Shown here in pieces: positions 9,260 to 30,361 of a DNA stretch of 64,000 nucleotides. The stretch is from Methylobacterium sp. (GTDB lineage: Bacteria; Pseudomonadota; Alphaproteobacteria; Rhizobiales; Beijerinckiaceae): NCBI GenBank assembly GCA_020252645.1, contig JADCCN010000002.1, forward strand, positions 372,001 through 436,000. Reading direction: 5' to 3'. Each line of letters begins with the position of its first letter. Positions within the stretch are counted from its first letter, which is position 1. The notes below the pieces were generated by a model, which had not been told where the DNA came from, made no database searches, and worked only from the letters and a program-made list of their open reading frames with translations. The position numbers and the translations under genes were made by a program.

Positions 9260-10149
9260 TCGGCAGCCTCCGTCACGGGCATGCCGAGAGGGCCGACATG
9301 GCCCTCGGCGCGGCGCGTTTCGCAATGATGGGTGTCGGAGCAGACGAACATCCTCCCGCCGCGATCATCCGTGATGACCTCGTCGAGATAGCTGTCGGTC
9401 GCGCCGCAAAGGGCGCAGGGCTGGTCGAATTTCGTTGCCTCGAAGGGGTGATCCTCGAAATCGAGGCTCACCACCCTGGTATGCGGCGGGATGGCGTAGA
9501 TCCGCTTCTCGCGCCCCGCGCCGAAGAGTTGCAACGCGGCGCTCTCGTGCATTTTGGGATTGTCGAATTTCGGGATGGGGGAGGGGTCCATCACATAGCG
9601 ATCCGCGACCAGCACGGGGTAGGCGTAGGTCTTCGCGATGTGTCCGTGCCGGGCGATATCCTCGTAGAGCCGCACATGCATCAGGCCGTATTCGGCGAGC
9701 GCATGCAGCGTGCGGGTCTCGGTCTCGCGCGGCTCAAGAAAGCGCAGCGGCTCAGGGATAGGCACCTGGTAGACCAGCACCTGATGGGCCTGAAGCTTCG
9801 CCTCGGGGATGCGATGGCGGGTCTGGATCACGGTCGCCTTCCCGGTCTCGGTCGTGGTTTCCACGCCCGCCGTCTTCTCGAAGAACTGGCGGATGGAGAC
9901 GGCGTTCGTGGTGTCGTCCGCGCCCTGGTCGATCACCTTGAGCACATCCGAAGGGCCGAGGATCGCCGCCGTCACCTGCACACCGCCGGTGCCCCAGCCA
10001 TAGGGCATGGGCATTTCGCGGCTCGCGAAGGGCACCTGATAGCCGGGAATCGCGATGGCTTTCAGAATCGCGCGGCGGATCATCCTTTTCGTCTGCTCAT
10101 CGAGATAGGCGAAGTTGTATCCGCGATAATTTTCCGCCGTCCGGCTCAT
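9256..10149 (-). CDS. phnJ: Alpha-D-ribose 1-methylphosphonate 5-phosphate C-P lyase PhnJ
   Basis: PhnJ is the radical-SAM enzyme that breaks the carbon-phosphorus bond, releasing a hydrocarbon and 5-phosphoribosyl-1,2-cyclic phosphate. The 297-residue protein carries the cluster-binding cysteines as C245-x2-C248-x21-C270-x5-C276, the same spacing as the E. coli enzyme. GYQVPFASREMPMPYGWGTG at about 36-55 is also conserved. All residues expected for activity are present. It overlaps phnI and phnK by four bases each. Confidence 0.97.
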   Translation of the reverse strand: MSRTAENYRGYNFAYLDEQTKRMIRRAILKAIAIPGYQVPFASREMPMPYGWGTGGVQVTAAILGPSDVLKVIDQGADDTTNAVSIRQFFEKTAGVETTTETGKATVIQTRHRIPEAKLQAHQVLVYQVPIPEPLRFLEPRETETRTLHALAEYGLMHVRLYEDIARHGHIAKTYAYPVLVADRYVMDPSPIPKFDNPKMHESAALQLFGAGREKRIYAIPPHTRVVSLDFEDHPFEATKFDQPCALCGATDSYLDEVITDDRGGRMFVCSDTHHCETRRAEGHVGPLGMPVTEAAE

Positions 10150-11246
10150 TCCGCGGCCTCCGGGTGGGTGATTGAACGGGTCTCGAGTTCGCGGCGCATC
10201 TGCCGCAGCAATGCGAGTTCGGCCTGGAAATCGACGTAATGCGGCAGTTTCAGGTGCTCGACGAAGCCGGTCGCCTGGATGTTGTCGGAATGCGAGAGCA
10301 CGAATTCCTCATCCTGCGCGGGGCTCGTGCGCTCCTCGCCGAGTTCGCCGGCGCGAAGTGCGCGATCCACCAGCGACATCGACATGGCGCGCCGCTCGCA
10401 ATGGCCGAAGGAGAGGCCATAGCCGCGCGTGAACTTTGCCGGCTCGGTGAGCGAACCCTTGAACTGGTTGACCATCTGGCACTCGGTGAGCGTGACCACG
10501 CCGAGCGAAACGATGAGGCCGAGCTCGGGGATCTCGAATTCCACCTCCACCTCGCCCATGCGGATTTCGCCCACGAAGGGATGGTTGCGGCCATAGCCGC
10601 GCTGGGTGGAATAGCCGAGCGCCAGCAGGAAGCCCTCGTCGCCGCGCGCGAGGTTCTGCAGGCGCAGATCGCGCTCCGCCGGGAAGGCCAGCGGCTCGCG
10701 CGTGAGATCGCCCACGGGCTTTTCGGGGTCGCCGGGCGGGTTGCGCTCGATGAGATCATCCTGCGCGAGGAGATCGGTCACGCGCGGGAAGCGCTCTTCC
10801 GTGTCGACCGGTGCCGTGACCGGCGCGGCAGGCTCGCTCTCCGCTGCCAGCGCGAAATCGAGCAGGCGATGCGTGTAATCGAAGGTCGGGCCCAGAACCT
10901 GCCCGCCCGGCAGGTCCTTGTAGGTGGAGGAAATGCTCCGGCGGATCGCCATTCCGGCCGTATCGAGGGGCACGGAGAAGCCAAAGCGCGGCAGCGTGGT
11001 GCGATAGGCGCGGATCAGAAAAATCGCTTCGATCAGATCGCCGCGCGCCTGCTTGATGGCGAGTGCCGCAAGCCCGCGATCATGGAGCGACCCCTCGCTC
11101 ATCACGCGGTCCACCGCAAGGCTCAGCTGCTGTTCGATCTGTCCGGTGCCGATCTCCGGCACGTTGCGATCGCCGCGCCGCTCATGTTCGAGCAGGCGAT
11201 GGGCATTGGCGATGGCGCGTTCGCCACCTTTCACCGCGACATACAT
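10146..11246 (-). CDS. phnI: Alpha-D-ribose 1-methylphosphonate 5-triphosphate synthase subunit PhnI
   Basis: PhnI is the nucleosidase-type subunit that, with PhnG, PhnH and PhnL, couples the phosphonate to ribose triphosphate from ATP. The 366-residue product starts MYVAVKGGERAIANAH, as PhnI proteins do, and has the conserved RGYGLSFGHCERRAMSMSLVDRAL region and the HSDNIQATGFVEHLKLPHYVDFQ segment. The start at 11246 coincides with the final base of phnH, in keeping with the coupling seen along the operon. Confidence 0.96.
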   Translation of the reverse strand: MYVAVKGGERAIANAHRLLEHERRGDRNVPEIGTGQIEQQLSLAVDRVMSEGSLHDRGLAALAIKQARGDLIEAIFLIRAYRTTLPRFGFSVPLDTAGMAIRRSISSTYKDLPGGQVLGPTFDYTHRLLDFALAAESEPAAPVTAPVDTEERFPRVTDLLAQDDLIERNPPGDPEKPVGDLTREPLAFPAERDLRLQNLARGDEGFLLALGYSTQRGYGRNHPFVGEIRMGEVEVEFEIPELGLIVSLGVVTLTECQMVNQFKGSLTEPAKFTRGYGLSFGHCERRAMSMSLVDRALRAGELGEERTSPAQDEEFVLSHSDNIQATGFVEHLKLPHYVDFQAELALLRQMRRELETRSITHPEAAE

Positions 11247-11830
11247 CAGCGCGCCTCCGTGAGAATGCGCGTGGAGCGCGGCAGGCCGATCACGGCCTCG
11301 CGGGTCGCGAAGATCAGATCGACGCCGAGCGGGAAACGCGCGGCATTCGCAGCCCATTGCGCGACGAAATCCGCCGGCAGGCCGGGGATTGCGAGTTCGC
11401 GCGTTCCGGGAATGCCGGGGCCGGCGAGGCTGTGCGCCGGGCCGCCCGCAAGGCTCTCCACCTTGAGGATCACGGTGGTCGAGCGATCCGGGTATTCCGG
11501 CGTGCCTTGCGCGAAGCTTGCGAGATCGAGCGCATCGCGTGTGAGATCCACGAAGGCGAATTCGGCTTCATCCGGCCGGGCCGCGCGCCGCGAACCGGTT
11601 TGGAAGGTGATGTCCTCTTCCGCCGCGATGAGGCCCGGCGAGAGATGGAACTGCACTTCGAAATCGAGCAGGCTCAACGCAATCGCGCGCGCCACCGGGC
11701 CGAGGGGCGAAGCCCCGCCCGCCAGCGCGCCGGCCGGGACAATGCGGCCGGGCTCGGCCAGCGCCTGCATCACGGAGCGGAACGCCGCCTGCTGGTCGAG
11801 AACGGGATTGGAGAACCCGGTGAGGCTCAT
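11246..11830 (-). CDS. phnH: C-P lyase core complex subunit PhnH
   Basis: PhnH is a structural, dimer-forming subunit of the PhnGHIJ core. The 194-residue protein matches the usual length (about 190-200) and has the expected AAFRSVMQALAEPGRI N-terminus, the AAEEDITFQTG region and a LSLLDFEVQFHL stretch. It follows phnG with two bases between stop and start and runs directly into phnI. Confidence 0.93.
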   Translation of the reverse strand: MSLTGFSNPVLDQQAAFRSVMQALAEPGRIVPAGALAGGASPLGPVARAIALSLLDFEVQFHLSPGLIAAEEDITFQTGSRRAARPDEAEFAFVDLTRDALDLASFAQGTPEYPDRSTTVILKVESLAGGPAHSLAGPGIPGTRELAIPGLPADFVAQWAANAARFPLGVDLIFATREAVIGLPRSTRILTEAR

Positions 11831-11832
11831 CG

Positions 11833-12300
11833 TCAGCCCTCCGCACGCACGAGAGTGAAGAAATCGACGCGCGTGGCCGCGGTTTCGGCGCGCTTCTTCT
11901 GCGCTTCCTCCGCAAGGCGCTGGCGGATGGGCGCGAGCACCTCCTGCTCCACGGTCGCGCGATCGGTCGCGCGCTGGGCGAGGGCCTCCAGGATCGCGGC
12001 CTGTTCGGCGCGCGCCGGGTCACGGCCGAGGAACTGGCCATAGCCGCGCTCGCCGGTCGCAAGCTCCACCACCGCGCGGGTCACGGTCGCTTCGCCGAGA
12101 TTGAAGGGCGCGCCATCGCCGCCCATCCGGCCCCGCAGCATCACGAGGCCGATTTCCGGCGCGCGAATGGTGGCATGGGCAAGCTTCGGCCAATGGGCGC
12201 GAAGGGGCTGGTCGAGTTCCTCCCGCGTCGCGCGGGCCAGCAGGGCCATCGTCGCGGCGCGGCAATCGGGGTTCGGCCTTGCGGCCTGGGTATCGGGCAT
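11833..12300 (-). CDS. phnG: C-P lyase core complex subunit PhnG
   Basis: PhnG takes part in the first step, attaching the phosphonate to the ribose of ATP. The 155-residue product has RPEIGLVMLRGR-like APEIGLVMLRGRMGGDGAPFN and the GERGYGQFLGRD segment of the family. ATG at 12300 gives the usual N-terminus (cysteine/alanine-rich helix CRAATMALLARA). The 89-base gap upstream holds the PhoB-box array, so phnG probably starts its own transcription unit. Confidence 0.93.
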   Translation of the reverse strand: MPDTQAARPNPDCRAATMALLARATREELDQPLRAHWPKLAHATIRAPEIGLVMLRGRMGGDGAPFNLGEATVTRAVVELATGERGYGQFLGRDPARAEQAAILEALAQRATDRATVEQEVLAPIRQRLAEEAQKKRAETAATRVDFFTLVRAEG

Positions 12301-12346
12301 TGCGGGCCATCCGGTCAGTGAGGATGCCTGCTCTTCCACCGCGCCG

Positions 12347-12386
12347 ATGACGGGCCGATGATGGTGCGATGACGCTTCGATGACAG
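12347..12386 (-). promoter_or_regulatory. PhoB-box array: four 7-mers at 11-bp spacing upstream of phnG
   Basis: On the minus strand the 7-mers are CTGTCAT (12386-12380), GCGTCAT (12375-12369), CCATCAT (12364-12358) and CCGTCAT (12353-12347), each separated by four bases. This is the geometry of a Pho box (CTGTCAT-N4-CTGTCAT), doubled. It lies in the phnE2-phnG gap, ending about 47 bases before the phnG ATG. It implies PhoB-activated transcription of phnG and the genes after it under phosphate limitation. Confidence 0.8.
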
Positions 12387-12389
12387 GTG

Positions 12390-13244
12390 TCACGCCTCGG
12401 CGCGGCGCAGGCCGATGAGGCGCGTGCGCAGGCGCGAGGAGAGGAAATCGATTGCCGCGACGGTCGCGAGAATCATCAGGATGATGAAGGCCACGCGATC
12501 CCATTCGAAGGTGCGGATCATCTCCGCGAGGTGCAGGCCAATGCCGCCCGCCCCGACGATCCCGATGATGGTTGCGGAGCGCGTGTTCGATTCGAAATAG
12601 TAAAGCGTCTGGCTGATCAGCACCGGCATCACCTGCGGCAGCACCCCGAACCGCATGACATGCAGGCGGTTGCCGCCGGTGGATGTCACACCCTCTGCCG
12701 GCTTGCGATCCGTCGCCTCGATGGCCTCGGAGAAAAGCTTCGTGAAGGAGCCGATATCGCTGGTCATGATGGCGAGCACGCCGGCGAAGGGGCCAAGGCC
12801 CACCACATTGATCCAGATGAGTGCCCAGATCAGCGTGTCCACGCCGCGAATGGTGTCCGAGAAGCGCCGGGTGATGAAGCGCATCGCCCAGCCGCCGATC
12901 ATGCCTTGTGCCGCCAGGAAGCCGAGAGGCAGCGCAATCGCCGCCGCAAGCAGGGTGCCGAGGAAGGCAATGGCCACGGTCTCGCCCAAAGACTTGAAGA
13001 AGGTTGCCGCATATCCGCCCGCCGAGGGCGGGAACATGAGCCCAAGGAAGGTCGCGAGTTGCGCCATGCCGCTGCCCAGCCGGACGAAGGAGAATTCGAG
13101 CCGCGCGAGCGCGTAGATCGCCACGCCGACCATTCCGGCCACGACAAGGCTCGTGATGATCCGGCTCCTGATCGAGGGGCGGACAAGCCCCGGATGGTTC
13201 CGCCGCGCATGATCGCGGTCGAGAAGCGAGGCTTTCGGGTTCAT
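12390..13244 (-). CDS. phnE: Phosphonate ABC transporter permease PhnE (second copy)
   Basis: This is an inner-membrane permease subunit of the PhnCDE importer. The 284-residue protein has a cytoplasmic N-terminus, about six hydrophobic segments and the EAA-type loop for ATPase contact near EAIEATDRKPAEGVTSTGGNR. The GAGGIG segment late in the protein is typical of PhnE. Paired with phnE1, it would form a heterodimeric channel. It overlaps phnE1 by four bases, and its stop codon sits directly beside the PhoB-box array. Confidence 0.92.
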   Translation of the reverse strand: MNPKASLLDRDHARRNHPGLVRPSIRSRIITSLVVAGMVGVAIYALARLEFSFVRLGSGMAQLATFLGLMFPPSAGGYAATFFKSLGETVAIAFLGTLLAAAIALPLGFLAAQGMIGGWAMRFITRRFSDTIRGVDTLIWALIWINVVGLGPFAGVLAIMTSDIGSFTKLFSEAIEATDRKPAEGVTSTGGNRLHVMRFGVLPQVMPVLISQTLYYFESNTRSATIIGIVGAGGIGLHLAEMIRTFEWDRVAFIILMILATVAAIDFLSSRLRTRLIGLRRAEA

Positions 13245-14125
13245 CGGCGCTGCTCCCCGGCAATCAGGCGGTGGCGGATGCGCTCGGTCACGAGGTCGAT
13301 CACCATCACGGTCGCGATGATGAGCAGCAGGATCGCCGAGACGTCGGAATAGTAGAACTTGCGCACGGCCTCGATCAGCTCCTGGCCGATGCCGCCGGCA
13401 CCGACGAAACCCATGACCGAGGCGCCGCGCACATTGATCTCGAAGCGCAGCAGGCTGTAGCTCGCGAAATTCGAGAGCACCTGCGGCACGGCCGCGTAGC
13501 GGATCACCTGCCAGCGGCTGGCCCCCGTGGCGATGGCACCATCCACCGGCTTCATGTCGATGTTCTCGACCACTTCCGCAAAGAGCTTGCCGAGCGCGCC
13601 AAAGGTGTGGATCGCGATCGCGAGCACGCCCGGCATGGGGCCGAGCCCGAAGGCCACGACGAAAATGAGCGCGAAAACGAGTTCCGGCACGGTGCGGCAG
13701 AATTCCAGCACCCGGCGCGCGATGAAGCGGGTCGTGCTGTTGGGCGAAAGGTTGGAGGAGGCGGCGAAGCAGGCAAGGAAGGCCGCCACCGCGCCCAGAA
13801 GAGTGCCGAGATAGGCAATCAGCAGCGTATCGCCGATATGGATGAGCCACTTCTTCCAGCCCCAGAACCATTCGGCGGGGTCGGTCAGCACGAACTGGCC
13901 ATTATCGAGGTGGAAGATGCGCCCGATATAGCTCGTGAACTGGTGGATATTCGCCGCGAATTTCGCGGGCTCCACCTCCGCGACATGGCTCGCCACGAGG
14001 ATGAGCACCAGCAGGGTGGCAAGGCCGAAGAGGCCGGCGCGGCGTTTTGCGGCCTGTTCGCGATCATAGGCGGCGAGATGTGGCGCAATCTGGTGATCGG
14101 GGAGACGGGTGACAGCCGTGGCCAT
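13241..14125 (-). CDS. phnE: Phosphonate ABC transporter permease PhnE (first copy)
   Basis: This is the first of two adjacent PhnE permeases. The 294-residue product has a membrane helix at about 33-50, a WFWGWKKWLIHIGDTLLIAY segment, and the EAA-like loop EVVENIDMKPVDGAIATGASR facing the ATPase. GFVGAGGIGQELIEAVR near the C-terminus is diagnostic of the family. It is separated from phnD by 82 bases that hold a probable terminator, so expression relative to phnD may be reduced. Confidence 0.93.
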   Translation of the reverse strand: MATAVTRLPDHQIAPHLAAYDREQAAKRRAGLFGLATLLVLILVASHVAEVEPAKFAANIHQFTSYIGRIFHLDNGQFVLTDPAEWFWGWKKWLIHIGDTLLIAYLGTLLGAVAAFLACFAASSNLSPNSTTRFIARRVLEFCRTVPELVFALIFVVAFGLGPMPGVLAIAIHTFGALGKLFAEVVENIDMKPVDGAIATGASRWQVIRYAAVPQVLSNFASYSLLRFEINVRGASVMGFVGAGGIGQELIEAVRKFYYSDVSAILLLIIATVMVIDLVTERIRHRLIAGEQRR

Positions 14126-14162
14126 GGAATTGCTCGCGGAGATCGGGGATCATGGTCGCGCG

Positions 14163-14187
14163 AAAAAGGCCGGGGCAAAGCCCGGCC
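14163..14187 (-). terminator. Probable intrinsic terminator or attenuator between phnD and phnE1
   Basis: On the minus strand GGCCGGGC-TTTG-CCCCGGCC can form a strong GC hairpin (14168-14187), followed at once by TTTTT (14167-14163). It lies 21 bases after the phnD stop. Read-through would be needed to make the permeases, so it may set a binding-protein to permease ratio, as is common in ABC operons. Confidence 0.65.
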
Positions 14188-14207
14188 TCGCGTCCGTCAG
14201 TCCGGCG

Positions 14208-15116
14208 TTACGAGCCCTTCTTGCGCAGGGCGTCGACGAACTTCTGGAGGTCTTCCGTGACCTTGTAATCGGAATGCTTCACAGCCGCGAAACCGGGCGA
14301 CTTGCCATCCGAGAGACGCTTGAAGGCTTCCGGCGCCTTGGTCGGCGCATCGAAGAACGCCTTGGCGATCGCGGCCTTCAGGTCAGCCGGCATGCTGGTC
14401 AGCACCGCATAGGGCGAGCCGGGGATCAGCTCGGAGCGGAAGACGATCTTGAAATCGTCCTTCTTCACCATGCTCTTGTTGGCCATGCGCGAGAGGTTCG
14501 AATCATCCTCGGAGTTCCACCAGTTGAAGGCCACGTCGCAGGTGCCCTGCTGCACGGCCATCACCGCGTTCTCGTGGCTGCCGGCATTCACGACCTTGCC
14601 GAAGAACTTCGCGGGGTCGATGCTCGCCTTGTTCATCGCGAACATCGGCACGTTGAAGCCGGAGGTCGAGTTCGGGTCGACGAGGCAGAGGTTCTTGCCC
14701 TTGAAATCCTCGAGCTTCGCGCCGGCCGCGTCCTTCTTCGCATAGGCGACCGAGTAGTAACCGGTCGAGCCATCGGCCGCGCGCATCGTCGCGAAAGCTT
14801 CCACGCCGCCATTCGAAACGGTGTGGGCGCGGACATAGGAAGACGGGCCGTAATCACCGATATGGATGGTGCCGGCGCGCTGGCCTTCGATCACCGCCGC
14901 GTAGTCGGCCGCGATGCGCAGGGTTACCTTCACGCCGAGTTCCTTGGAGAGATATTCCATCCAGGGGCCGAAGCGCTCGGTCACGCCCGAGGCGTTCTCG
15001 GCAGGAATGGTCGCATAGACGAGCTCGGGATATTTCGACTTCCAATCCTGCGCGAGGGCGGGAGCGGCAAGGCTGAGAAGGGCGGCAGCAAGCACCGCAC
15101 GACGGGGGAGCGTCAT
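14208..15116 (-). CDS. phnD: Phosphonate ABC transporter substrate-binding protein PhnD
   Basis: PhnD is the periplasmic binding protein of the PhnCDE importer. The 302-residue precursor has a Sec signal peptide (MTLPRRAVLAAALLSLAAPALAQ, cut near residue 22), then the family pattern: IPAENASGVTERFGPW, AADYAAVIEGQRAGTIHIGDYGPSSY, and DPNSTSGFNVP. These are the stretches that line the phosphonate pocket. It lies 32 bases after phnC. Confidence 0.95.
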   Translation of the reverse strand: MTLPRRAVLAAALLSLAAPALAQDWKSKYPELVYATIPAENASGVTERFGPWMEYLSKELGVKVTLRIAADYAAVIEGQRAGTIHIGDYGPSSYVRAHTVSNGGVEAFATMRAADGSTGYYSVAYAKKDAAGAKLEDFKGKNLCLVDPNSTSGFNVPMFAMNKASIDPAKFFGKVVNAGSHENAVMAVQQGTCDVAFNWWNSEDDSNLSRMANKSMVKKDDFKIVFRSELIPGSPYAVLTSMPADLKAAIAKAFFDAPTKAPEAFKRLSDGKSPGFAAVKHSDYKVTEDLQKFVDALRKKGS

Positions 15117-15148
15117 GGTCGTTTCCTTGTGTTTGCAGGGAGATGAAG

Positions 15149-15976
15149 TCAGGCGACGGCTGCCAGCTGGGGGAGACGAGCGGGCACGGAAGGCGGAAGC
15201 ACGTTCATCGCGTCCTCGGCCTCGAGGCCGTAGAGTTCGCGCGCGGTCGCCTCGGTCAGGGCCTCGGGCGCGCCATCGAACACGATGCGGCCCTGCGCCA
15301 TGCCCACCAGGCGGTCGCAGTAATCCTTGGCGATATCAAGATCATGCAGGTTGCAGATCACGGTGATGCCGAAATGCTTGTTCAGCCGCTGCAGCGCATC
15401 CATCACGATGCGGGTGTTGCGCGGATCGAGCGAGGCAATGGGCTCATCGGCGAGAACCAGATCCGGCTCCTGCACCAGCGCGCGGGCAATCGCCACGCGC
15501 TGCTGCTGGCCGCCGGAGAGCGTTTCCGCCCTTTGCGCCGCGAGGTTCGCGATGTCGAACTGCTCCAAGGCCGAAACAGCGAGCGCGCGGTCTTCCTCGG
15601 CCCAGAGCTTCAGCATGGACCGGGCCATGGAGGTGGCATGCAACCGGCCCATCAGCACATTCGTCAGCACATCGAGGCGTCCCACGATGTTGAATTGCTG
15701 GAAGATCATGGCGCAGGAGGTGCGCCAGCGGCGAAGATCGCGGCCCGCAAGCGCGGTTACCGGGCGGCCGTCCCAATGGATCTCGCCGGAAGACGGCTCC
15801 TGAAGCCGGTTGATCATGCGCAGAAGCGTGGATTTCCCCGCGCCGGAGCGGCCGATCACGCCGACGAAGCTGCCCTTTTCCACTTGAAGGGACACATCAT
15901 CCACGGCACGCTTGTCACCAAATCGCCGCGTCAGGTTCCGGATTTCGAGCATCTCAAGCCTCGGTCGATCGATCAT
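15149..15976 (-). CDS. phnC: Phosphonate ABC transporter ATP-binding protein PhnC
   Basis: PhnC is the ATPase of the phosphonate importer. The 275-residue protein has Walker A (GRSGAGKST), Q-loop [20 protein letters not shown], signature [15 protein letters not shown] and Walker B ([12 protein letters not shown]), followed by the H-loop [18 protein letters not shown] is a PhnC hallmark. It is the first gene of the phn locus in the window; no phnF-type GntR regulator precedes it. Confidence 0.95.
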
Positions 15977-16220: not shown

Positions 16221-16607
16221 TCACTGGATGGGAATGCTGGCCGCCTTTGCCGCCTCGATCGTCCCGGAATCCGGAATCGCTCCGTGATTGGAAAGCATGA
16301 AAGCCACGATGGACAGCTTTTCCTCGTCGGTCAGCGAGGCAGGATCGTTGAACGGCATCAACTGCATGTAGTCGATCAAACCCTGAGCATTGCCGAACTT
16401 CGATGCAATGAGCGAGCCGACGCCCCAGATCGGGGTCTGGAAGCCCTCTCCACGCTTGCCGTCGACCCCGTGGCAAAGCTTGCAAGCCTGCTCATAAAGA
16501 GCCTTGCCCTCCTGCACCTGCCTGGAGGGCCCCGTCGCGCGGCTCGCGCTGCCATAGGCGGTTACGGCAAGGGCGGTCAGGGCAAGGATGCTGAGCGATC
16601 TAGTCAT
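16221..16607 (-). CDS. Small periplasmic cytochrome c, probable partner of the adjacent molybdoenzyme
   Basis: The 128-residue precursor starts at 16607 with a signal peptide (MTRSLSILALTALAVTAYGSASRA). One haem site, CKLCH at 42-46, is present, with a possible axial Met in YMQLMPFND. Mono-haem size fits a SorB-type electron acceptor better than the di-haem SoxD. It lies 72 bases after the molybdoenzyme gene on the same strand, so electrons from the Mo centre likely pass to it. The pairing is well known for sulfite dehydrogenases; the substrate here is inferred. Confidence 0.85.
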   Translation of the reverse strand: MTRSLSILALTALAVTAYGSASRATGPSRQVQEGKALYEQACKLCHGVDGKRGEGFQTPIWGVGSLIASKFGNAQGLIDYMQLMPFNDPASLTDEEKLSIVAFMLSNHGAIPDSGTIEAAKAASIPIQ

Positions 16608-16679
16608 GGGCCTTCGGAGAAAAAGAGGGTGGAAAGGCGGGCGCACCCTCTCCGGATGCGCCCTTGGCGGGGCATGGTG

Positions 16680-18062
16680 TCAGACGATCTCGATCTTGAA
16701 CTTCGGGATCGACCAATTCGCCATGCCCAGACTGTTCAGCGGGATCTTCTCAGGCTGGGACGTTCCGGCATTGTCGGTGGTGCGCGTCTCGATCACATGC
16801 TGGCCTGCCGTCGCATCCCACGGGAAATCGAAGCGGACCCAGGTATACTTGCCGAGATTCGGCGCCCTCAGCGCAGCCACCTGCCAGGCGCCGCCGTTCA
16901 CGCGATACTCGACGTGCTTTACCCCATGTTGTGGAGCCCAGGCATAGCCGCGCATGACATGACGGCCAGCAGTCATGCGGGGCACCTCACCTTTCTTCAG
17001 CGGATAATTCGCCGGAATGGAGGGAGACTGCTCCAGAACGAGGGGAACCGTGATCAGGGATTTCGGCGGCATCCAGGTCACCATCGGACCCTTGATATCC
17101 GCCGGCGTGATACCCGGGAGGAACTCGTCATTCGCGGCATCGAATTCCGGCGCCTGATAATCCGGGCCGAGGAACACCTCGCCCTTGGTGTTGAGGCGCG
17201 TCCAGATCCGCCTGTCCGATACGCGGATCTCGGTCACCCACTTGATCGAGGCCGTGCCGCCCCAGCCCGGCACAACCACGCGCACGGGCGCGCCATGATC
17301 CGGCGAGAGCGGATTGCCGTTCATTGCAAAGCAGATGCCCATGTCGTGCTGCTGCGCCAAGACATCGGCGAAGGGCATGGGCCGGCCCATGTCATTGCCA
17401 TCGACACCCGACCAGAACAGCACGGTGCGCGCATTCGGCTTGATGCCGCAGCGTGAAAAAATCTCGGCCATCGAGACATACTGCCACTCGGCCTGCCCCA
17501 CCGCTCCGAGCACCCAGTTGCCGCCGCCCACCTGCTGGCCGGTGAAACCGCCCTGCTCCCAGAAGAGGGTGCGGCCGTTCCCGTGGCATTCCATCGTGGC
17601 GATGATGGTCTTCGACGGCATCCTGATCAGGTCTTCGTAGCTGATCTCGAGAGGCCGCTCGACCGACGAGCCATGGATTTTCAGCTTCCAGTTCGCGCGA
17701 TCGAGAACCGGCTTCTGGTCGACGGTCGGCGTCGGATAGTGGTTGCGGACATAGAACTCCTCGACCGGAGTCATGAAGGTCGAGAAATTCCAGTAATTGC
17801 CCGAACGGACCGTCGCGCCAATGTTCAGGACGCGGCTGTCATCCTTGATCAGGATGCGGCGTGCAGGCGCTGCCGGAGCAGCAGGGGCAGCCGGCGCCGG
17901 CGCTGGCGGCGCCTGCTGTGCGGCCGCTTCCGAGCCCACCATCGCGGCCGCGCCAAATGCGCTGGCTGCAACGAACAGGCTTCGACGATCCATATTCGTC
18001 CCGTTTTTCAGGACGTCCTTCACAAGCGCTTCTGCGGCTGCGCGCTGACGTGTCTCCGACAT
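16680..18062 (-). CDS. Sulfite-oxidase-family molybdopterin oxidoreductase (SoxC/SorA-like)
   Basis: Enzymes of this family oxidise sulfite (SorA) or a protein-bound sulfane (SoxC) in the periplasm using a molybdenum cofactor. The 460-residue protein has a Tat-type signal (DRRSLF after an unusually long n-region), an Ala/Pro linker at about 51-68, the molybdenum-ligand Cys159 in ATMECHGNGR, an HGAPVRVVVPGWGG pocket motif, and a C-terminal Mo-co dimerisation domain. The start at 18062 has a strong GGAGGGG site; ATG at residue 24 is an alternative. A sigma-54 promoter stands 59 bases upstream. No other sox genes are nearby. Confidence 0.87.
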   Translation of the reverse strand: MSETRQRAAAEALVKDVLKNGTNMDRRSLFVAASAFGAAAMVGSEAAAQQAPPAPAPAAPAAPAAPARRILIKDDSRVLNIGATVRSGNYWNFSTFMTPVEEFYVRNHYPTPTVDQKPVLDRANWKLKIHGSSVERPLEISYEDLIRMPSKTIIATMECHGNGRTLFWEQGGFTGQQVGGGNWVLGAVGQAEWQYVSMAEIFSRCGIKPNARTVLFWSGVDGNDMGRPMPFADVLAQQHDMGICFAMNGNPLSPDHGAPVRVVVPGWGGTASIKWVTEIRVSDRRIWTRLNTKGEVFLGPDYQAPEFDAANDEFLPGITPADIKGPMVTWMPPKSLITVPLVLEQSPSIPANYPLKKGEVPRMTAGRHVMRGYAWAPQHGVKHVEYRVNGGAWQVAALRAPNLGKYTWVRFDFPWDATAGQHVIETRTTDNAGTSQPEKIPLNSLGMANWSIPKFKIEIV

Positions 18063-18120
18063 CGACTTCCCCTCCGATCGTTCTGGCGAAGCGCTCTGGT
18101 TGGCGCCCGTTCGCAGCAGA

Positions 18121-18136
18121 TGCAGTCAGAGTGCCA
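18121..18136 (-). promoter_or_regulatory. Sigma-54 (-24/-12) promoter for the molybdoenzyme-cytochrome operon
   Basis: The minus strand reads TGGCACTCTGACTGCA, with GG and GC separated by ten bases as required for RpoN. Only the T of the usual TTGC is replaced by C. Transcription would begin near 18110, about 48 bases before the ATG at 18062. The adjacent response regulator is of the sigma-54-activating type, and rpoN itself lies at 33477-35015. An activator binding site further upstream was not identified. Confidence 0.75.
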
Positions 18137-18260
18137 TGGTGCTTCGCACAATCGACCCCAAAAAACGCTGTATTTTCAACGAACCGGTGATGCGCGCGTC
18201 CACGTTTTCGGATTGTGACAGGACAGGCAGTCCGAATTCCCGGACTGGCTCAGCCCTCAA

Positions 18261-18363
18261 AGAGCATGCTCTCGCAAAATTGGATACCGGTTTTGCGTAA
18301 CAACATGCGACAAAACAAAAAGATAGAGCACGGTTTTGATTCCATCCAAACGAGACGTGCTCT
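18261..18363 (+). repeat. Palindromic repeat family B, copy 1 (~103 bp)
   Basis: It begins AGAGCATGCTCTCGCAAAAT and ends GAGACGTGCTCT, with internal hairpins (CGCAAAAT...TTTTGCG; GAGCACG...CGTGCTC). The copy at 30259-30361 is its inverted counterpart, differing at about five of 103 positions by eye. It adjoins family A copy 2. Confidence 0.9.
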
Positions 18364-18364
18364 G

Positions 18365-18465
18365 GAGCATGATGTGTTCAGACGGAAGCACATCATGCTC
18401 TTATCTTATTATTATCGCATGCTTTTTTGCGAAAAACCGGATTCCACTTTTTCACAGCATGCTCT
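18365..18465 (+). repeat. Palindromic repeat family A, copy 2 (~101 bp)
   Basis: It has the same structure as the copy at 2091, with the perfect GAGCATGATGTG/CACATCATGCTC stem and a second hairpin at the far end. It ends on the stop codon of the response regulator gene. The copy at 28891-28992 lies in the opposite orientation, so the two bracket the 10.4-kb ars/ABC-transporter module. Confidence 0.9.
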
Positions 18466-19816
18466 AGCGAATGTCGAGCCTTCGGATCTTCTCGAAGAGG
18501 GTTGATCGGGAAACGTCGAGCTTCTGCGCGGCGAGTGTGACATCTCCCTTCGTCAGCGCGAGCGCGGCGAGGATGGCGCGGCGCTCCGCGATATCGCGGC
18601 TCTGCTGGAGGGAAAGCATCAGGTCGGTTTTGTCTGCGCGATGCACCTTTTCGGGAAAGAGATCGGCCGGACCAATCAGGTCAGCCTCGGCCAATGCGAC
18701 CGCCCGCTCGATCCTGTTGCGCAGTTCACGAATGTTCCCCGGAAAATCATGAGCCAGCAGGGCATCCTCCGCGAGGAAGGAGAACTGCTTCCGGCCCGTG
18801 CCAAATCCGGCGCAGAACTCGCCCAGGAATCGATTGGCCAGCGCGAGGATATCTTCGGGGCGCGCGCGCAAAGCGGGAATATCGACCACGATCACGGCCA
18901 GGCGGTAATAGAGATCCTCGCGGAAACGTCCGTCCTTGACCCGCTGGGTCAGGTCGGCATTGGTCGCCGCAACCACCCGGGCCCTGAAGCGTGTCAGGCG
19001 GTCACCGCCAACGCGCATGAAGGACCGCTCCTGCAGCAACCGCAGAAGCTTCGCCTGCATGGCCAAGGGAAGATCCGCAACCTCGTCGAGGAAGAGCATT
19101 CCGTCACCGGCCTGCTCGGCATATCCGATCCGACGCGCCTGTGCGCCGGTGAACGCACCCTTCTCGTGGCCGAAGATCTCGCTTTCCAGCAATTCGGTCG
19201 GGATGGCCGCGCAATTGATGGCCATGAAGGGCTGGCGGTTCCGCTCCCCCTTTGCATGCAGGAAGCGCGCGGCCACCTCTTTTCCGGCGCCGCTGGGGCC
19301 GGTCAACAGAACCGCGGAATCGACCGTCGCCAGCCGTCGCAACTGGCGCTCCACCATGGCGATGGCGGGAGAATTGCCGAGCTCGTAACCCTCTGTGAGC
19401 GCCCAGCGCGACGCGATAAGCTTTTCAATTCGCAAGAGCAGCGCATCAATTTCAAAGGGCTTGGTCATGTAATCGGCCGCACCTGCCTTCATCAGGCGCA
19501 CAGCCTGGTCTATATCTCCAAATCCCGTGATGAAAAGGATGGGCGTGCCAAAGACTTGCGACGCAATGACCCGGAAGATCTCTTCCCCGGTCAGGTCAGG
19601 CAGCCGGATATCACAGAGGATGACATCGGGATCGGCCTTACCAAGGTTCTGGATTGCATCGCGACCCGTGCGGAACCACTCCGTCCGGTAGCCCTCGACA
19701 TTGAACCACTCGACCAGAGACTGCCCCATCACCGGATCATCCTCGATGAGGACGATCAGTGGTCCGCGCCCCGGTATGGGAAGTTTAGGCTGCGGTTCGG
19801 AGATCTGGCTGAGCAT
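18464..19816 (-). CDS. Sigma-54-dependent NtrC-family response regulator (AioR-like position)
   Basis: The 450-residue protein has a receiver domain (acid pocket EDD, phospho-acceptor Asp69 in LCDIRLPD, MTKPFE lysine), an AAA+ domain with Walker A TGPSGAGKE, the GAFTGA loop that contacts sigma-54, ATNADL and DFPGNIRELRN, and a Fis-type helix-turn-helix (LAAQKLDVSRSTLFEKIRRL). The start at 19816 overlaps the kinase gene by 32 bases; a longer frame to 19930 lies wholly within the kinase. It should activate RpoN promoters when phosphorylated. The one seen nearby, at 18121-18136, drives the molybdoenzyme operon. Confidence 0.93.
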   Translation of the reverse strand: MLSQISEPQPKLPIPGRGPLIVLIEDDPVMGQSLVEWFNVEGYRTEWFRTGRDAIQNLGKADPDVILCDIRLPDLTGEEIFRVIASQVFGTPILFITGFGDIDQAVRLMKAGAADYMTKPFEIDALLLRIEKLIASRWALTEGYELGNSPAIAMVERQLRRLATVDSAVLLTGPSGAGKEVAARFLHAKGERNRQPFMAINCAAIPTELLESEIFGHEKGAFTGAQARRIGYAEQAGDGMLFLDEVADLPLAMQAKLLRLLQERSFMRVGGDRLTRFRARVVAATNADLTQRVKDGRFREDLYYRLAVIVVDIPALRARPEDILALANRFLGEFCAGFGTGRKQFSFLAEDALLAHDFPGNIRELRNRIERAVALAEADLIGPADLFPEKVHRADKTDLMLSLQQSRDIAERRAILAALALTKGDVTLAAQKLDVSRSTLFEKIRRLDIR

Positions 19817-21221
19817 GAGGGATCCTGACGGTAAGGGCGGTACCCGGTGGACCTTCGATGGAAAGGGTTGCTCGCTGATCCGAGACAATGCGCGCCACGA
19901 TCCACAAGCCGAGGCCGGCATTGGCATCATGGACCGATGTTGCGCCCGCGGTCAGGAGCATCGCTCGAGAATCCGCGGGCAGCCCCGGACCCTCGTCGGA
20001 GATCTGCAGCACCGTCTCGTCATGACTGGATCGAACGCTGAAAAAGACACGGCCTCCCGGCGGGGAAGCCGCGCAGGCATTGAGCGCGAGATTGAGAGCC
20101 ATCTGGCGGAAGGGTTGGGCGGCGATGGAGGATTCGGAGCCGAGTTCGTTGCTCCATTCGAGTTTCAGGTCGCGGCGATAAGCCTCGCTCTCGACCAGAA
20201 ATCGCAGGTCTTCGATGTCGCTGGTTGTCAGGATCCGGTCATCCGTCTCGCCACGCCAGACAACCAGCGAGGCCCGAACGATGTTCCGGATCCCGGTGAG
20301 ACCGCGTTCGAGCAGCGTCGCGGCACGCTCGCGCCGCTCGGGATCATCACCGTATCGCTGGATCATCCGCACCGCATTGAACATTCCGCCCAACGGATTG
20401 TTAACCTCATGCGCGATGGCCGATGCATAGCGCCCGAGCAGGGCCCGTCGCTCCTGGTCGGCCAGATGGTGAAGCAGGGCCTCCCGCTCGCTGATGGCGA
20501 GAGCCGCTGCGTTGTAGCGGCGATAGGCCTTGCCGGCCTCGGTATCCGGCGGCGGAAGCTTGCGTTCAGGAATGGGTTCCAGCCGTCCGTCGCCGGCGCG
20601 GGCCAGATAGGTGGAGAGGCGGAGCAAGGGACGGAGCGTGCGGTGGACGACGAACCAGCCCAGCCCGGTGAAAAGGAGTGTCAGCGCGCCATTGACGCCG
20701 AGGAGGGCCCAGAACGTTTCGGAGCGGATCCGCTGGATATTCGCGATATCGATCTCGGCCGCAATACGGCCGACCTCTTTGCCGCCCTCCCGCAAGGTCC
20801 TGTGAACCCAGACGCGCCCGCCGGGATCGGATAGATCCGGCTCGCCGCGATCAAAGCGAGCTTTCTCGGGCGCTTTCAGTCCGACGGGGTAGGTCGCCGG
20901 ATCGAGGGCCGCCAGCACGGATTCATTCGGCAGGATCACCAGAACGATCCTCGGGTTCACACCGGAATACTTGTGGCGGGCACGATCGAGGACATCGAAG
21001 GCCTCCCATGGCTCCTGCCGGATGACCGGCGAGTGGAGCGCCGTGGAAAGGCCGTCGAGATAGGCACCGGTCAGTTGCCGGAAGCTCTGGGCCTGGTCCC
21101 TCCCGAGGCGATCGAGAACGACCTTCGACATCGCCGCCGCAATGCCGATCATCAGCAGGGCCACGATGAGCGGCGCCCGGACGGCCAATGGCCACCTCTG
21201 GGGATGGAAAACCCCGATCAT
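19785..21221 (-). CDS. Membrane sensor histidine kinase (AioS-like position)
   Basis: The 478-residue protein has one membrane helix at about 14-34, a periplasmic domain of about 135 residues, and a second helix at about 172-195. A linker follows, then the H-box AIAHEVNNPLGGM, the N-box NLALNACAA, the G-boxes DEGPGLP and GLGLWIV. It overlaps the binding-protein gene by four bases and the regulator gene by 32. This order (binding protein, kinase, sigma-54 regulator) suggests the periplasmic protein hands its signal to the kinase's outer domain. Confidence 0.92.
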   Translation of the reverse strand: MIGVFHPQRWPLAVRAPLIVALLMIGIAAAMSKVVLDRLGRDQAQSFRQLTGAYLDGLSTALHSPVIRQEPWEAFDVLDRARHKYSGVNPRIVLVILPNESVLAALDPATYPVGLKAPEKARFDRGEPDLSDPGGRVWVHRTLREGGKEVGRIAAEIDIANIQRIRSETFWALLGVNGALTLLFTGLGWFVVHRTLRPLLRLSTYLARAGDGRLEPIPERKLPPPDTEAGKAYRRYNAAALAISEREALLHHLADQERRALLGRYASAIAHEVNNPLGGMFNAVRMIQRYGDDPERRERAATLLERGLTGIRNIVRASLVVWRGETDDRILTTSDIEDLRFLVESEAYRRDLKLEWSNELGSESSIAAQPFRQMALNLALNACAASPPGGRVFFSVRSSHDETVLQISDEGPGLPADSRAMLLTAGATSVHDANAGLGLWIVARIVSDQRATLSIEGPPGTALTVRIPHAQPDLRTAA

Positions 21222-22096
21222 CCGAATTCCTGCGCCCGCTTCCAGTGCTCGGCGATGCTGTCAAAGAGACTGGCTTCGCCCGCGACAAAGCCATCCAGCC
21301 GCAAAATGCCCAGGATCGCCCGTCCGTTCGGATCATCCGGCATGCTGATCAATGCCGCAGCAATGGCGTTCCGCAAGCCGGGGTCCACCCCGCGCGCCGC
21401 AGCAACCGGCGGAAAGCCCATAGGGTCGGAGATGTGTTGGATCCTCGTTCCGGAAACCAGCGCGGGTTCGATTTCGCGCATCACATCCCAGACATACCCG
21501 TCCACCGATCCCGAATGCGCGAGCCCCGATGCCACGGCACGGATCACGTTCCGATGCCCGAATGTGAAAAAGGTCCGGGCAAAGAAGGTCGAGGGGCTTT
21601 CGCGCAAGCCCGCCAGCAAGGATCGCGTGACCAGAAACCCTGAATTGCTGTCGGGGTCCGAAAAGGCATGAATGTCGCCGCGCAGGGAATGGATGCTTTC
21701 GCTCTCCCGTCCGGCGCGCGTGACGATATAGGCCCGGTACAGCGGCGCGCGCTGGTAAAGCGGAACCGCAACCAGCCTCAGATGCTCGCGGTTCTGCACA
21801 AAAGGAAAGCCGCAGATCCATGCGGCATCGAGCTGGTTGGCCACCAGCAGGGACGTGATCTCCTGATAGGTCCGGCGCTTCACCAGCTGTACCGGTCGCC
21901 CGATATGGCGCGACAGGTAACGCTCGAGATCGGCAATCAGCTGGATATCCGAGTCCAGGAACACGGGTGTCAGGCCGAAGAGCACCGGCCGCGCTGCGCT
22001 CGCGATGGTCGGGACACCCAAGGCAAAGGTCGCAAGGCCACCGGCCAGAACATGACGGCGAGAAACTTCCTTCGGCCGGGCCTGAGCCGAGCGCAT
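21218..22096 (-). CDS. PhnD-family periplasmic binding protein, probable signal receptor (AioX-like)
   Basis: The 292-residue precursor has a Tat-like signal (SRRHVLAGGLATFALG...ASA) and the phosphate/phosphite/phosphonate-binding fold: TPVFLDSDIQLIADLERYL, LVANQLDAAWICGFPF, and DPDSNSGFLVTRSL. Cys95 in AWICGFPF is the only cysteine in the whole protein. AioX arsenite sensors belong to this family and use a cysteine for arsenite; equating Cys95 with it is inference. GGAAGGAAGGG precedes the ATG at 22096. With no transporter genes beside it, and coupled to a kinase, a sensing rather than import role is likely. Confidence 0.82.
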   Translation of the reverse strand: MRSAQARPKEVSRRHVLAGGLATFALGVPTIASAARPVLFGLTPVFLDSDIQLIADLERYLSRHIGRPVQLVKRRTYQEITSLLVANQLDAAWICGFPFVQNREHLRLVAVPLYQRAPLYRAYIVTRAGRESESIHSLRGDIHAFSDPDSNSGFLVTRSLLAGLRESPSTFFARTFFTFGHRNVIRAVASGLAHSGSVDGYVWDVMREIEPALVSGTRIQHISDPMGFPPVAAARGVDPGLRNAIAAALISMPDDPNGRAILGILRLDGFVAGEASLFDSIAEHWKRAQEFG

Positions 22097-22190
22097 GGAA
22101 CCCTTCCTTCCAGCCGCGTCTCCCGCGAGGCTTGTGCGCAGAGTGATGGAGAAAGCAGCTGTGATCAAGCCGAGCGTTCCCGGCCGGGAT

Positions 22191-23063
22191 TCAGGCCACT
22201 TCCTGCGCCATGGCCTTTGCCGTCGCGCCCTCGAGCCGACCGATGACCTGAAGTTCGGTCCTCAGCCTGTCGAGGCCCATCCGCTCGATCGGCAGGTTGA
22301 CGAAGGCCGCGACACGCGAACTCAACTGTCGATAGGCATTCCGAAGGGCTTCACGCCGTTCTGCGTCGCTGACGCCGGCTTCCAGCGGGTCGGCGATGCC
22401 CCAGTGAACGACGAGAGGATGACCCTGCCAGCGGGGGCATTTCTCACCGGCAGCAGCATCACAGACGGTGATGACGAAATCCATCCGTGGGGCTTCGGCA
22501 AAGGCATGCCAGCTTTTCGAATGCAGGCCGGCCGTATCATAGCCGAGGCTGGTGAGAAGACGGAGCGCTTCCGGATCCACCACCCCTCGCGGGCGCGACC
22601 CGGCCGAGAAGGCACGGAATCGACCCCGCCCCTCGAGATTGATGAGCGCCTCGGCCATGATGGATCTTGCGGAATTGTGGGTGCAGAGGACGAGGACGGA
22701 ATACCGGGGCACACCTTCCTGCCATTCCTTGAGTGCGGGGATTGCCATTGAAGGCCCCTGTGCGCCCGCCGGTGCAAGGTTGCGGCCCAACACCTCAAGC
22801 ATCTCGGTGACAGCCGCCCGATCCATCGCATAAACCATGCGCCGCCCGTCCTTTCGCGATCGGACAAGGCCGGCACTCTCGAGCTGGGCCAGATGGGTCG
22901 AGAGCGTATTATGGGGCACTGCGATCAGCCGCGCGATGTCGCCGGCTCCAAGACCAAAGGGCTCATGACGCGCAAGCAGGCGAAGCACCGCTAAGCGGGA
23001 TGGTTGGGCAACGGCCTGGAGCTGTTCGACAAGAAGGTCGGGATGAAACGGTGTCGATACCAT
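22191..23063 (-). CDS. ArsR-type repressor fused to a low-molecular-weight-phosphatase arsenate reductase (ArsR-ArsC)
   Basis: Residues 1-95 form an ArsR/SmtB winged helix (PSRLAVLRLLA...LSTHLAQLESAGLVRSRKDGRRMVYAM). Residues 120-290 form an LMW-PTP domain with the P-loop C127-THNSAR and two more cysteines, C201 and C209, as in thioredoxin-linked ArsC. The N-terminal domain has no cysteine, so the usual ArsR As(III) site is missing and all three cysteines lie in the reductase part. It is transcribed toward the binding-protein gene (94-base gap) and divergently from gapdh-arsJ. The product both regulates and reduces arsenate, by inference from the fusion. Confidence 0.9.
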   Translation of the reverse strand: MVSTPFHPDLLVEQLQAVAQPSRLAVLRLLARHEPFGLGAGDIARLIAVPHNTLSTHLAQLESAGLVRSRKDGRRMVYAMDRAAVTEMLEVLGRNLAPAGAQGPSMAIPALKEWQEGVPRYSVLVLCTHNSARSIMAEALINLEGRGRFRAFSAGSRPRGVVDPEALRLLTSLGYDTAGLHSKSWHAFAEAPRMDFVITVCDAAAGEKCPRWQGHPLVVHWGIADPLEAGVSDAERREALRNAYRQLSSRVAAFVNLPIERMGLDRLRTELQVIGRLEGATAKAMAQEVA

Positions 23064-23290: not shown

Positions 23291-24334
23291 ATGAGAGTGG
23301 GCATCAATGGCATGGGACGCATCGGCCGGCTGGCTCTCAGGGCCGCGTTCGGAAGCGCCCGCAGGCCGGCGGATGATCCCCGCAGGGGAAATCGGCTCGA
23401 TGTCGTCCATGTCAACGAGGTCAAGGGAGGAGCCATCGCTACGGCGCATCTGCTCGAATTCGATTCGATGCAGGGCCGCTGGCATGCCACGATTGCGCCG
23501 CAAGGCGAGGCGTCGCTACGCATCGAAGACCGGACGATCCGGTTCACTGAACACAAGACCTCGGCAGAGATCCCATGGGGTGATCTCAGCGTGGACCTCG
23601 TGCTGGAATGCACCGGCAAATTCCTCGATCGCAAGTCAATCGAGGGGCATCTTCATCGCGGCGCCAAGCGGGTGATCGTCGCCGCGCCGGTCAAGGTCGA
23701 TGGCGTGCTCAATCTTGTGGTTGGCGTCAACGAGCACCTGTATGATCCGGCCCGGCATGACATCGTGACCGCGGCATCCTGCACCACGAATTGCCTCGCT
23801 CCTGTCGTGAAGGTGCTCCACGGCGAAATCGGCATCCGGCACGGGCAGATCACGACGATCCATGACCCCACCAACACCAATGTCATCGTCGATGCCCCGC
23901 ACAAGGACCTGCGGCGCGCGCGTTCGGCCATGTTGTCCCTCCAACCCACGACAACCGGCAGCGCCACGGCGATCGGGCTCATTTATCCCGAATTGAAGGG
24001 CAAGCTCGATGGCCATGCCGTTCGGGCACCCGTTCTCAATGCCTCTCTGACGGATTGTGTGTTCGAGATGGCGCGCCCCGTCACGGCGGAAGAGGTGAAT
24101 GGCCTGTTCCGGGCCGCTGCCGCCGGGCCCCTGGCCGGCATCCTGGGCTTTGAAGGCCGGCCGCTGGTTTCGATCGACTACCAGGGCGATACGCGTTCCG
24201 CGATCATCGACGGGCTGTCGACGCTGGTGACCGACGGGACGATGCTCAAGGTCTATGCCTGGTACGACAACGAGATGGGCTATGCCTGCCGCATGGTGGA
24301 TCTGGCCTGCCATCTCGAAGCCACGGGGCTTTGA
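23291..24334 (+). CDS. Glyceraldehyde-3-phosphate dehydrogenase of the ArsJ pathway
   Basis: The 347-residue protein has the NAD-binding start [15 protein letters not shown] and the active site [10 protein letters not shown] with Cys164, plus [12 protein letters not shown] near the C-terminus. Canonical GAPDH is of similar length. Its gene is followed one base later by arsJ, the arrangement known for arsenate resistance. There GAPDH makes 1-arseno-3-phosphoglycerate from arsenate and glyceraldehyde 3-phosphate, and ArsJ exports it. It is therefore likely a dedicated copy and not the main glycolytic gene. The ATG is preceded by AAGGAAGGG. Confidence 0.92.
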
Positions 24335-24335
24335 C

Positions 24336-30260: not shown

Positions 30261-30361
30261 AGCACGTCTCGTTTTGATGGAATCAAAACCGTGCTCTATC
30301 TTATTGTTTTGTAGCATGTTGTTACGCAAAATCGGTATCCAATTTTGCGAGGGCATGCTCT
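30259..30361 (-). repeat. Palindromic repeat family B, copy 2 (inverted)
   Basis: This is the reverse complement of the copy at 18261-18363, with about five differences. It starts in the msrA stop codon and ends at the nhaA stop codon, filling the whole convergent gap. Each transcript would end inside this hairpin-rich sequence, so it may serve as a bidirectional 3' end. Confidence 0.88.

Follow-up and report, generated by a model that had tools for sequence, protein, structure and literature searches.

Why should a gene of the sulfite oxidase superfamily lie behind a sensing system of the kind that serves arsenite oxidase genes? The question is raised by a locus of a Methylobacterium sp. genome (assembly GCA_020252645.1, contig JADCCN010000002.1), of which the 64,000 nucleotides from position 372,001 to 436,000 were analysed and are called the window below. 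A sequence-only reading of this DNA had described a sigma-54 promoter, TGGCACTCTGACTGCA at 18136-18121, in front of genes for a sulfite-oxidase-type molybdoenzyme and a cytochrome c, with a regulator, a kinase and a binding protein upstream, and all six were found where it had placed them. Going beyond that description, we identify the sensor as AioX on sequence grounds, place the enzyme gene in the slot that aioBA fills in other genomes, and add a pair of tandem operators. The locus is quite likely an arsenic island in which aioBA has been replaced by a sulfite-oxidase-superfamily gene working as the proposed arsenite oxidase, and the enzyme probably represents a third, so far undescribed type of arsenite oxidase, induced by arsenite. 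Sequence evidence for the gene identities, the operators, the promoter, their conservation and the occupation of the aioBA slot leads to this answer.

The sensor gene (21218..22168, minus strand) encodes a putative periplasmic arsenite-binding protein of the PhnD-like Pfam family Phosphonate-bd. When phmmer was run against all PDB sequences, the protein matched AioX of Pseudorhizobium banfieldiae NT-26 (6esv) at E=2.2e-82, ArrX at 8.7e-39, and the phosphite-binding proteins HtxB and PtxB at 6e-8 and 1e-6; its identity to NT-26 AioX was 50% over 290 aa. All seven arsenite-pocket residues (Y88, C106, Y131, S161, S163, H192 and D210) are present, as are V56 and F57 of the loop, and the pocket is complete in 18/18 AioX proteins from the loci of the enzyme. 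In the PhnD protein encoded in the same window, Gly takes the place of Cys106. The list of pocket residues, including the arsenite-linked Cys106, comes from the available text of PMC5908839, which also describes AioX and its kin as selective for arsenite or arsenate (AioX for arsenite) among the oxyanions tested. Because the AioX pocket is complete, ars genes are adjacent and the operators are of the AioR type, the compound sensed is most likely arsenite itself. The sequence-only reading had left open whether the signal was something other than arsenite or the enzyme had a role other than plain sulfite oxidation. With arsenite as the most likely signal, the former is disfavoured, and it is the role of the enzyme that probably differs.

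Adjoining aioX, as in NT-26, is the gene for the sensor histidine kinase AioS (19785..21221, minus strand; HATPase_c at E=1.1e-12, HisKA under its cut-off). The gene for AioR follows (18464..19930, minus strand), an NtrC-type response regulator in which Pfam recognised a receiver, a sigma-54 AAA+ domain with a GAFTGA loop and a Fis helix-turn-helix; its true start probably lies inside the open reading frame as listed. Some 400 bases separate the end of this gene from the start of the enzyme gene downstream of it (16680..18062, minus strand), behind which lies the gene for a cytochrome c with one CXXCH (16221..16646, minus strand; Pfam cytochrome c), probably starting at the ATG near 16607. Relatives of the locus were obtained by a scan of genome contigs with the enzyme, which gave 29 loci (given L numbers, as are the control regions below); together with the genome of the window these make up 30 genomes. 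AioX was encoded in 18/29 loci, and the kinase and regulator lay at the contig end in three more (L008, L025 and L026), so that 21/29 loci were linked to aioX, aioS and aioR (XSR). The linkage spans Alpha- and Betaproteobacteria, with X-S-R and the enzyme gene on one strand in alphaproteobacteria and divergent in betaproteobacteria. The same strand split between the two classes is described for aioXSR and aioBA in the part of PMC3834237 at hand. At the genome level, 21/29 had an AioX match (E<=1e-20) and 8 had none. A match to the window cytochrome was found downstream of the enzyme in 25/29 loci (in L016 at a distance of 1.8 kb); in L029 a cytochrome follows the enzyme by Pfam, and L014, L026 and L027 end inside the gene or within 250 bases of it. 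Directly after the enzyme's own cytochrome, a further cytochrome with 37-49% identity to that of the NT-26 aio operon was present in 4/29 loci (L008, L009, L010 and L025). Matches to ArsJ, to glyceraldehyde-3-phosphate dehydrogenase (GAPDH) or to ArsR/ArsC-type proteins occurred in 9/29 loci, many of the loci being short (L007, L008, L010, L015, L018, L020, L023, L028 and L030). Two carriers are recorded as named strains and not as metagenome bins, namely Elioraea thermophila YIM 72297 (L024) and Bosea sp. Tri-44 (L008). In L005 the aioX gene at 6100-7045 was read as two overlapping pieces, probably through an assembly frameshift.

If AioR controls the enzyme gene, its binding sites would be expected in front of it. 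According to the accessible text of PMC3834237, all 12 aioBA operons with aioXSR carry two tandem palindrome-like sequences 100-200 bases upstream in addition to a -24/-12 region. A matrix was made from 16 aioB-upstream palindromes only; nine AioBA loci supplied them (that of NT-26, one on another plasmid and those of seven genomes), and a 17th, the third palindrome at -76 of L134, was excluded. With this matrix and a spacing of 30-34 bases, the best pair in the 64 kb was 18198-18213 with 18230-18245, which scored 26.3 against 16.9 for the next pair and lies 136-183 bases before the enzyme start. Site 1, GTCCGGGAATTCGGAC (18230..18245, minus strand), was also the top single site with a wider matrix. 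Site 2, ATCCGAAAACGTGGAC (18198..18213, minus strand), 32 bases from site 1, came from the aioB-only matrix pair and is the weaker of these two proposed AioR operators; it fails a simple palindrome rule and is weak when taken alone. In 12/12 alphaproteobacterial XSR-linked relatives scanned (L026, of unstated class, was not among them), the best pair of the locus was upstream of the enzyme with its far end at -150 to -183, which makes 13/13 with the window. Among the scanned loci without XSR (L013, L014, L018 and L023) no aioB-matrix pair was found at the gene (0/4), and the same was true of the eight betaproteobacterial loci (0/8), where the palindromes have another form: GTTAC-N6-GTAAC stands at -166 to -185 in 6/8, although five of these were not significant singly. 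By the simple palindrome rule, the counts were reached by at most 5 of 200 shuffles in 9/12 relatives and in 7/9 aioB controls; L006, L010, L012, two controls and the window showed one site each.

The promoter TGGCACTCTGACTGCA (18121..18136, minus strand) is separated by 58 bases from the ATG at 18062, ahead of which stands a GGAGG ribosome site. It is the sole exact match to TGGCAC-N6-TGCA in the window; with up to one mismatch there were 6 matches, when 4.16 were expected. As the bare motif is not rare in the window, the weight of the promoter comes from its conservation. The 350 bases preceding the matched start held a GG-N10-GC site with at least 9/12 consensus letters, a threshold that we chose, in 18/27 relatives examined, corresponding to 18/21 XSR-linked loci and 0/6 others. 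In this count L030 and L032 were left out because their start is missing, L033 offered only 106 bases upstream, and L017, L019 and L026 were matched from a later residue. Across 856,888 positions the background was 312 such sites, with the true ones counted in, or about 0.12 expected per locus. The activator loop was GAFTGA in 17 loci and GAYTGA in L020, and these are exactly the 18 XSR-linked loci with a -24/-12 site; in the regulators of the remaining three, L008, L009 and L012, no GAFTGA-type loop was found. Conservation of the -24/-12 element in relatives with the same gene order, which the sequence-only reading had put forward as a check, is thus seen wherever the regulator has the loop. 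The nine AioBA loci behaved similarly, eight having both the site and the loop (in one of them as GAFTSA) and L134 having neither. The concordance of loop and site gave Fisher p=0.0008 for the 21 loci and 4e-5 for all 30, values calculated without correction for kinship on loci that are not independent, as L008, L009 and L012 are not unrelated. In the available text of PMC6011840 the NT-26 aioBA promoter is given as TGGCACAACGATTGCA. The linkage, the operators and the concordance between promoter and loop all support the chain that had been suggested, from an AioXSR-like system to a sulfite-oxidase-type gene through sigma-54, and we consider it very likely on these grounds that AioXSR would regulate the enzyme. 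L008, L009 and L012 keep the palindromes despite regulators in the AioR position that have no sigma-54 loop; in L012 the matched open reading frame holds the receiver and the DNA-binding end only.

The gene order of NT-26 is X-S-R-B-A-cytC-moeA, and that of the window X-S-R-enzyme-cytochrome. Neither in the window nor in any of the 29 loci did NT-26 AioA or AioB give a match above 45 bits, and aioBA fills the slot in 8/12 other AioX regions examined. AioA over the TIGR02693 cut-off was found in neither the genome of the window (0/1) nor those of the relatives (0/29). Among 385 genomes of the class, in contrast, AioA over the cut-off occurred in 8/9 AioX-bearing genomes (that of the window excluded), and these nine had no close relative of the enzyme, the best match having 36% identity. 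The mutual exclusion of AioA and the enzyme gave a Fisher p of 1.5e-7. The ninth of these genomes encodes an Arx-like protein of the dimethyl sulfoxide (DMSO) reductase family beside AioX (L135), with ArrA among its weaker matches; with this protein as query, no ArxA-like match above 33% identity at E<=1e-40 was found in the 30 genomes. AioX was found in 26 plasmid records (E<=1e-40), and a relative of the enzyme in no plasmid record (E<=1e-60). In a tree of AioX proteins the enzyme-linked and AioBA-linked sensors were intermixed, with at least 2 label changes forced by starred branches and 5 on the best tree, in which just 7/30 inner branches were starred. The mixed tree therefore points to more than one swap of the oxidase beneath the same AioXSR switch. 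Three AioX regions deviate in other ways. L126 is an orphan aioX within a 2.1 kb duplicate of part of L127 (99.7% identity, genome G057), away from aioBA. The L129 region ends at a contig edge, and AioA is on another contig. L168, on the megaplasmid of Methylorubrum extorquens AM1, has an orphan aioX sensor with a long open reading frame, not scanned, in the kinase position and no nearby match to aioBA, a sulfite-oxidase-type gene or a regulator.

What is the enzyme that occupies this slot? It belongs to the sulfite oxidase superfamily (PF00174, the molybdopterin domain, at E=3.5e-45; PF03404, the C-terminal dimerisation domain, at E=4.2e-5) and carries an N-terminal twin-arginine motif. The earlier label of SoxC/SorA-like holds for the superfamily and not beyond it: the enzyme scored 156.7 bits with the SoxC model TIGR04555 (cut-off 420), 141.4 bits with the SorA model NF052245 (cut-off 600) and 152.1 bits with the SorT model NF052247 (cut-off 570). 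In a 66-row tree, from which the partial relatives L026, L027, L030 and L032 were left out, it fell into a clade of its own with 25 rows (support 100/100, stem 1.87), separate from SoxC, from SorA-like proteins and from the other members in alphaproteobacteria; L033 fell outside the clade, and SoxC was the nearest large group (87/91, not starred). The same genome encodes a separate SoxC that scored 630 bits (cut-off 420), and the enzyme is therefore distinct from that of the Sox pathway. In all 25 rows of the clade R26-R27 (the twin-arginine motif), R106, C159, R164 and K274 are kept, and H108 and H160 are kept in 24/25; C159 is presumably the molybdenum ligand. The best PDB sequence match was 4pw3 (E=4.8e-34), which we take to be SorT. 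A change from Tyr to Phe at position 245, which we take to be the active-site tyrosine of sulfite oxidase, was considered as a change in specificity and dropped, because the position varies in the groups compared. The relatives L029 and L033 are from Chloroflexota, with 46% and 33% identity, respectively, a cytochrome downstream and no AioXSR in their short contigs; L029 lies inside the clade and L033 outside it.

Several observations weigh against an arsenite oxidase. The 21 PDB sequences that the enzyme matched were without exception nitrate reductases and sulfite oxidases or dehydrogenases, and the enzyme retains the superfamily's core residues (R106, H108, C159 and K274, with R164 as in SorA), so sulfite oxidation is a possible activity. 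The loop W168-E169-Q170 appeared unique to the clade in a MAFFT alignment, with W168 and E169 invariant in 25/25 rows; its weight was reduced, as true SorT has a counterpart of equal length. The AlphaFold model, with a mean pLDDT (predicted local distance difference test) of 69.6 over the protein, is poor at this loop (residues 161-170 and 178-187 below 50), and the predicted pocket was therefore not used as an argument. No AioXSR was found in 8/29 loci. Four of these (L014, L018, L023 and L029) have 1.7-10 kb upstream, and in L013, L030, L032 and L033 the upstream DNA is too short to tell. The 8 genomes without an AioX match include those of L013, L014, L018 and L023, and the match in the L029 genome is weak (32%) with Trp for Tyr88. 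The enzyme can thus occur without the AioXSR switch, unless the drafts are incomplete; around the enzyme and cytochrome of L023, which has no AioX, lie two ArsC-type genes, an aquaporin gene and pst-type genes. The mutual exclusion with AioA depends in part on 29 draft genomes whose completeness is not stated. The simple palindrome rule recognises one site only in the window, a count reached by 34/200 shuffles and so within chance. The proposed arsenite oxidation by the enzyme is deduced from the locus, its regulation and the replacement of aioBA.

Could the enzyme instead be a sulfite or organic-sulfur dehydrogenase that was placed under arsenite control, where it would remove sulfite or balance sulfur chemistry during arsenic stress? 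Membership of the superfamily and the conserved core would fit such a role, and so would the closest sequence relatives with a solved structure, which are sulfite oxidases and dehydrogenases. However, the enzyme is far below the equivalog cut-offs for SoxC, SorA and SorT and forms its own clade, the genome has a true SoxC, and the gene replaces aioBA and does not stand beside it, which makes this explanation unlikely. Another possibility is that arsenite is the signal only and that the enzyme oxidises a different compound of arsenic or antimony (antimonite, methylarsenite or a thioarsenic compound, for example), which would draw on the same evidence from the locus as an arsenite oxidase. In its favour, the adjacent ArsJ points beyond plain arsenite efflux. 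We regard it as rather unlikely given that the slot is so often filled by aioBA in other AioX regions (8/12) and that AioX is reported to be arsenite-selective among the oxyanions tested, as far as the text of PMC5908839 at hand goes.

The remaining two explanations concern the switch. The sensor might detect phosphite or phosphonate and the island serve phosphorus acquisition, since phn genes follow on the same strand and the sensor is in a phosphonate-binding Pfam family. This is very unlikely: the match to AioX exceeds those to HtxB and PtxB by far (2e-82 versus 6e-8 and 1e-6), Cys106 is present, and phn genes are frequent in arsenic islands as neighbours of aio genes, according to the available text of PMC3834237. 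Finally, the enzyme gene might lie next to the regulator gene by coincidence, behind a promoter that is not a real one. This would agree with the chance frequency of the one-mismatch -24/-12 motif in the window, but the linkage in 21/29 loci, the operator pair in 13/13 alphaproteobacterial loci scanned and the concordance of loop and site make coincidence extremely improbable.

An arsenite oxidase under AioXSR is the explanation that we prefer, and the steps that we infer, from arsenite as ligand through regulation, export and electron route to arsenite as substrate, would be as follows. Arsenite would be bound by AioX in the periplasm via Cys106, the complex would stimulate AioS, and AioS would phosphorylate AioR. 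AioR would sit on the two 16-base palindromes 32 bases apart, and its GAFTGA loop would open sigma-54 RNA polymerase at the -24/-12 element. The folded enzyme would be exported by the twin-arginine translocation (Tat) system and, at its single molybdenum centre, transfer an oxygen atom to arsenite to give arsenate, passing the electrons to the adjacent cytochrome c, its probable acceptor. Arsenate entering the cell could be handled by GAPDH with ArsJ and by an ArsC domain. Such chemistry is plausible for the enzyme; sulfite and arsenite are both oxidised at a molybdenum centre, by a two-electron transfer of oxygen to a lone pair. That arsenite is the substrate seems rather likely, because the gene is in the slot of an arsenite oxidase, under its operators and with its partners, in genomes where no arsenite oxidase was found.

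Compared with AioXSR-AioBA of NT-26, the locus has the same sensor, kinase, regulator, gene order, tandem operators, -24/-12 promoter, downstream cytochrome c and phn surroundings, whereas the Rieske protein AioB and AioA, of the DMSO reductase family, are absent and a sulfite-oxidase-type enzyme is found instead. ArxXSR-Arx, the anaerobic arsenite oxidase system, likewise has an AioX-type sensing module adjoining a molybdoenzyme, but Arx is of the DMSO reductase family, and the 30 genomes had no ArxA-like match above 33% identity at E<=1e-40. The sulfite dehydrogenases SorT/SorU and SorAB share the superfamily and the combination of a molybdenum subunit with a cytochrome c, and differ in regulation and surroundings and in the curated cut-offs, far below which the enzyme scores. 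SoxC of the Sox thiosulfate pathway shares the superfamily and has Gly where the enzyme clade and SorA have Arg at 164. A SoeABC-like enzyme of Thioalkalivibrio is similar in being a sulfur-type molybdoenzyme suggested as an alternative arsenite oxidase; SoeA, unlike the enzyme here, to which it is unrelated, is cytoplasmic and of the Aio/Arr/Arx (DMSO reductase) family (both points from the accessible text of PMC6620896). The available text of two reviews (PMC12263811, PMC13262295) names Aio and Arx as arsenite oxidases, each a member of the DMSO reductase family; the same two are named in the part of PMC6549141 at hand, and the accessible portions of PMC6723331, PMC5894208 and PMC10071563 hold nothing against our proposal. 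The sequence-only reading knew of no described case, and a full-text literature search, with most subscription papers and all bioRxiv preprints outside its reach, likewise returned no description of an arsenite oxidase of the sulfite oxidase family or of AioXSR beside such a gene. It appears fairly likely that the sulfite oxidase superfamily independently gave rise to a third class of arsenite oxidase, made up of a molybdenum subunit and a cytochrome c and lacking any Rieske or iron-sulfur subunit. In Alpha- and Betaproteobacteria whose genomes yielded neither aioA nor arxA, this class would have taken over the AioXSR module together with the position of aioBA, and surveys of aioA would miss these organisms. 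If so, arsenite oxidation has an independent origin outside the DMSO reductase family, which could explain its occurrence in organisms without aioA or arxA, and the gene would be a new marker for environmental surveys, for which aioA is a common one.

The surroundings of the locus are in keeping with an arsenic island. The aioX gene adjoins a gene in which ArsR is fused in one frame to an ArsC domain of the low-molecular-weight phosphatase type (22191..23063, minus strand; domain and curated-model scans). Divergent beside this fusion are the genes for an ArsJ-associated GAPDH (23291..24334, plus strand; NF033735, 529.7 bits against a cut-off of 450) and for the organoarsenical efflux transporter ArsJ (24255..25592, plus strand; NF033734, 514.3 bits against a cut-off of 400), which probably starts later than listed. 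GAPDH and ArsJ together handle arsenate. On the other side, phn-type genes extend over 9256..15976 (minus strand), where PhnC and PhnD scored above their NCBIfam cut-offs; the other genes there, towards phnJ, we take to be of the phn type. A domain match at 33516-33995 (minus strand) marks a sigma-54 factor gene. An ABC (ATP-binding cassette) transporter that seemed common to the window and L014 was set aside, as the similarity is only distant (29% and 23%). Upstream of the operators, a 20-base sequence, AACCGGTATCCAATTTTGCG at 18273-18292, has a second copy with one mismatch at 30330-30349, when none would be expected by chance. An inverted repeat near the first copy was considered as an operator and rejected; the recurrence of its core at 30330-30349 makes a dispersed intergenic repeat more likely.

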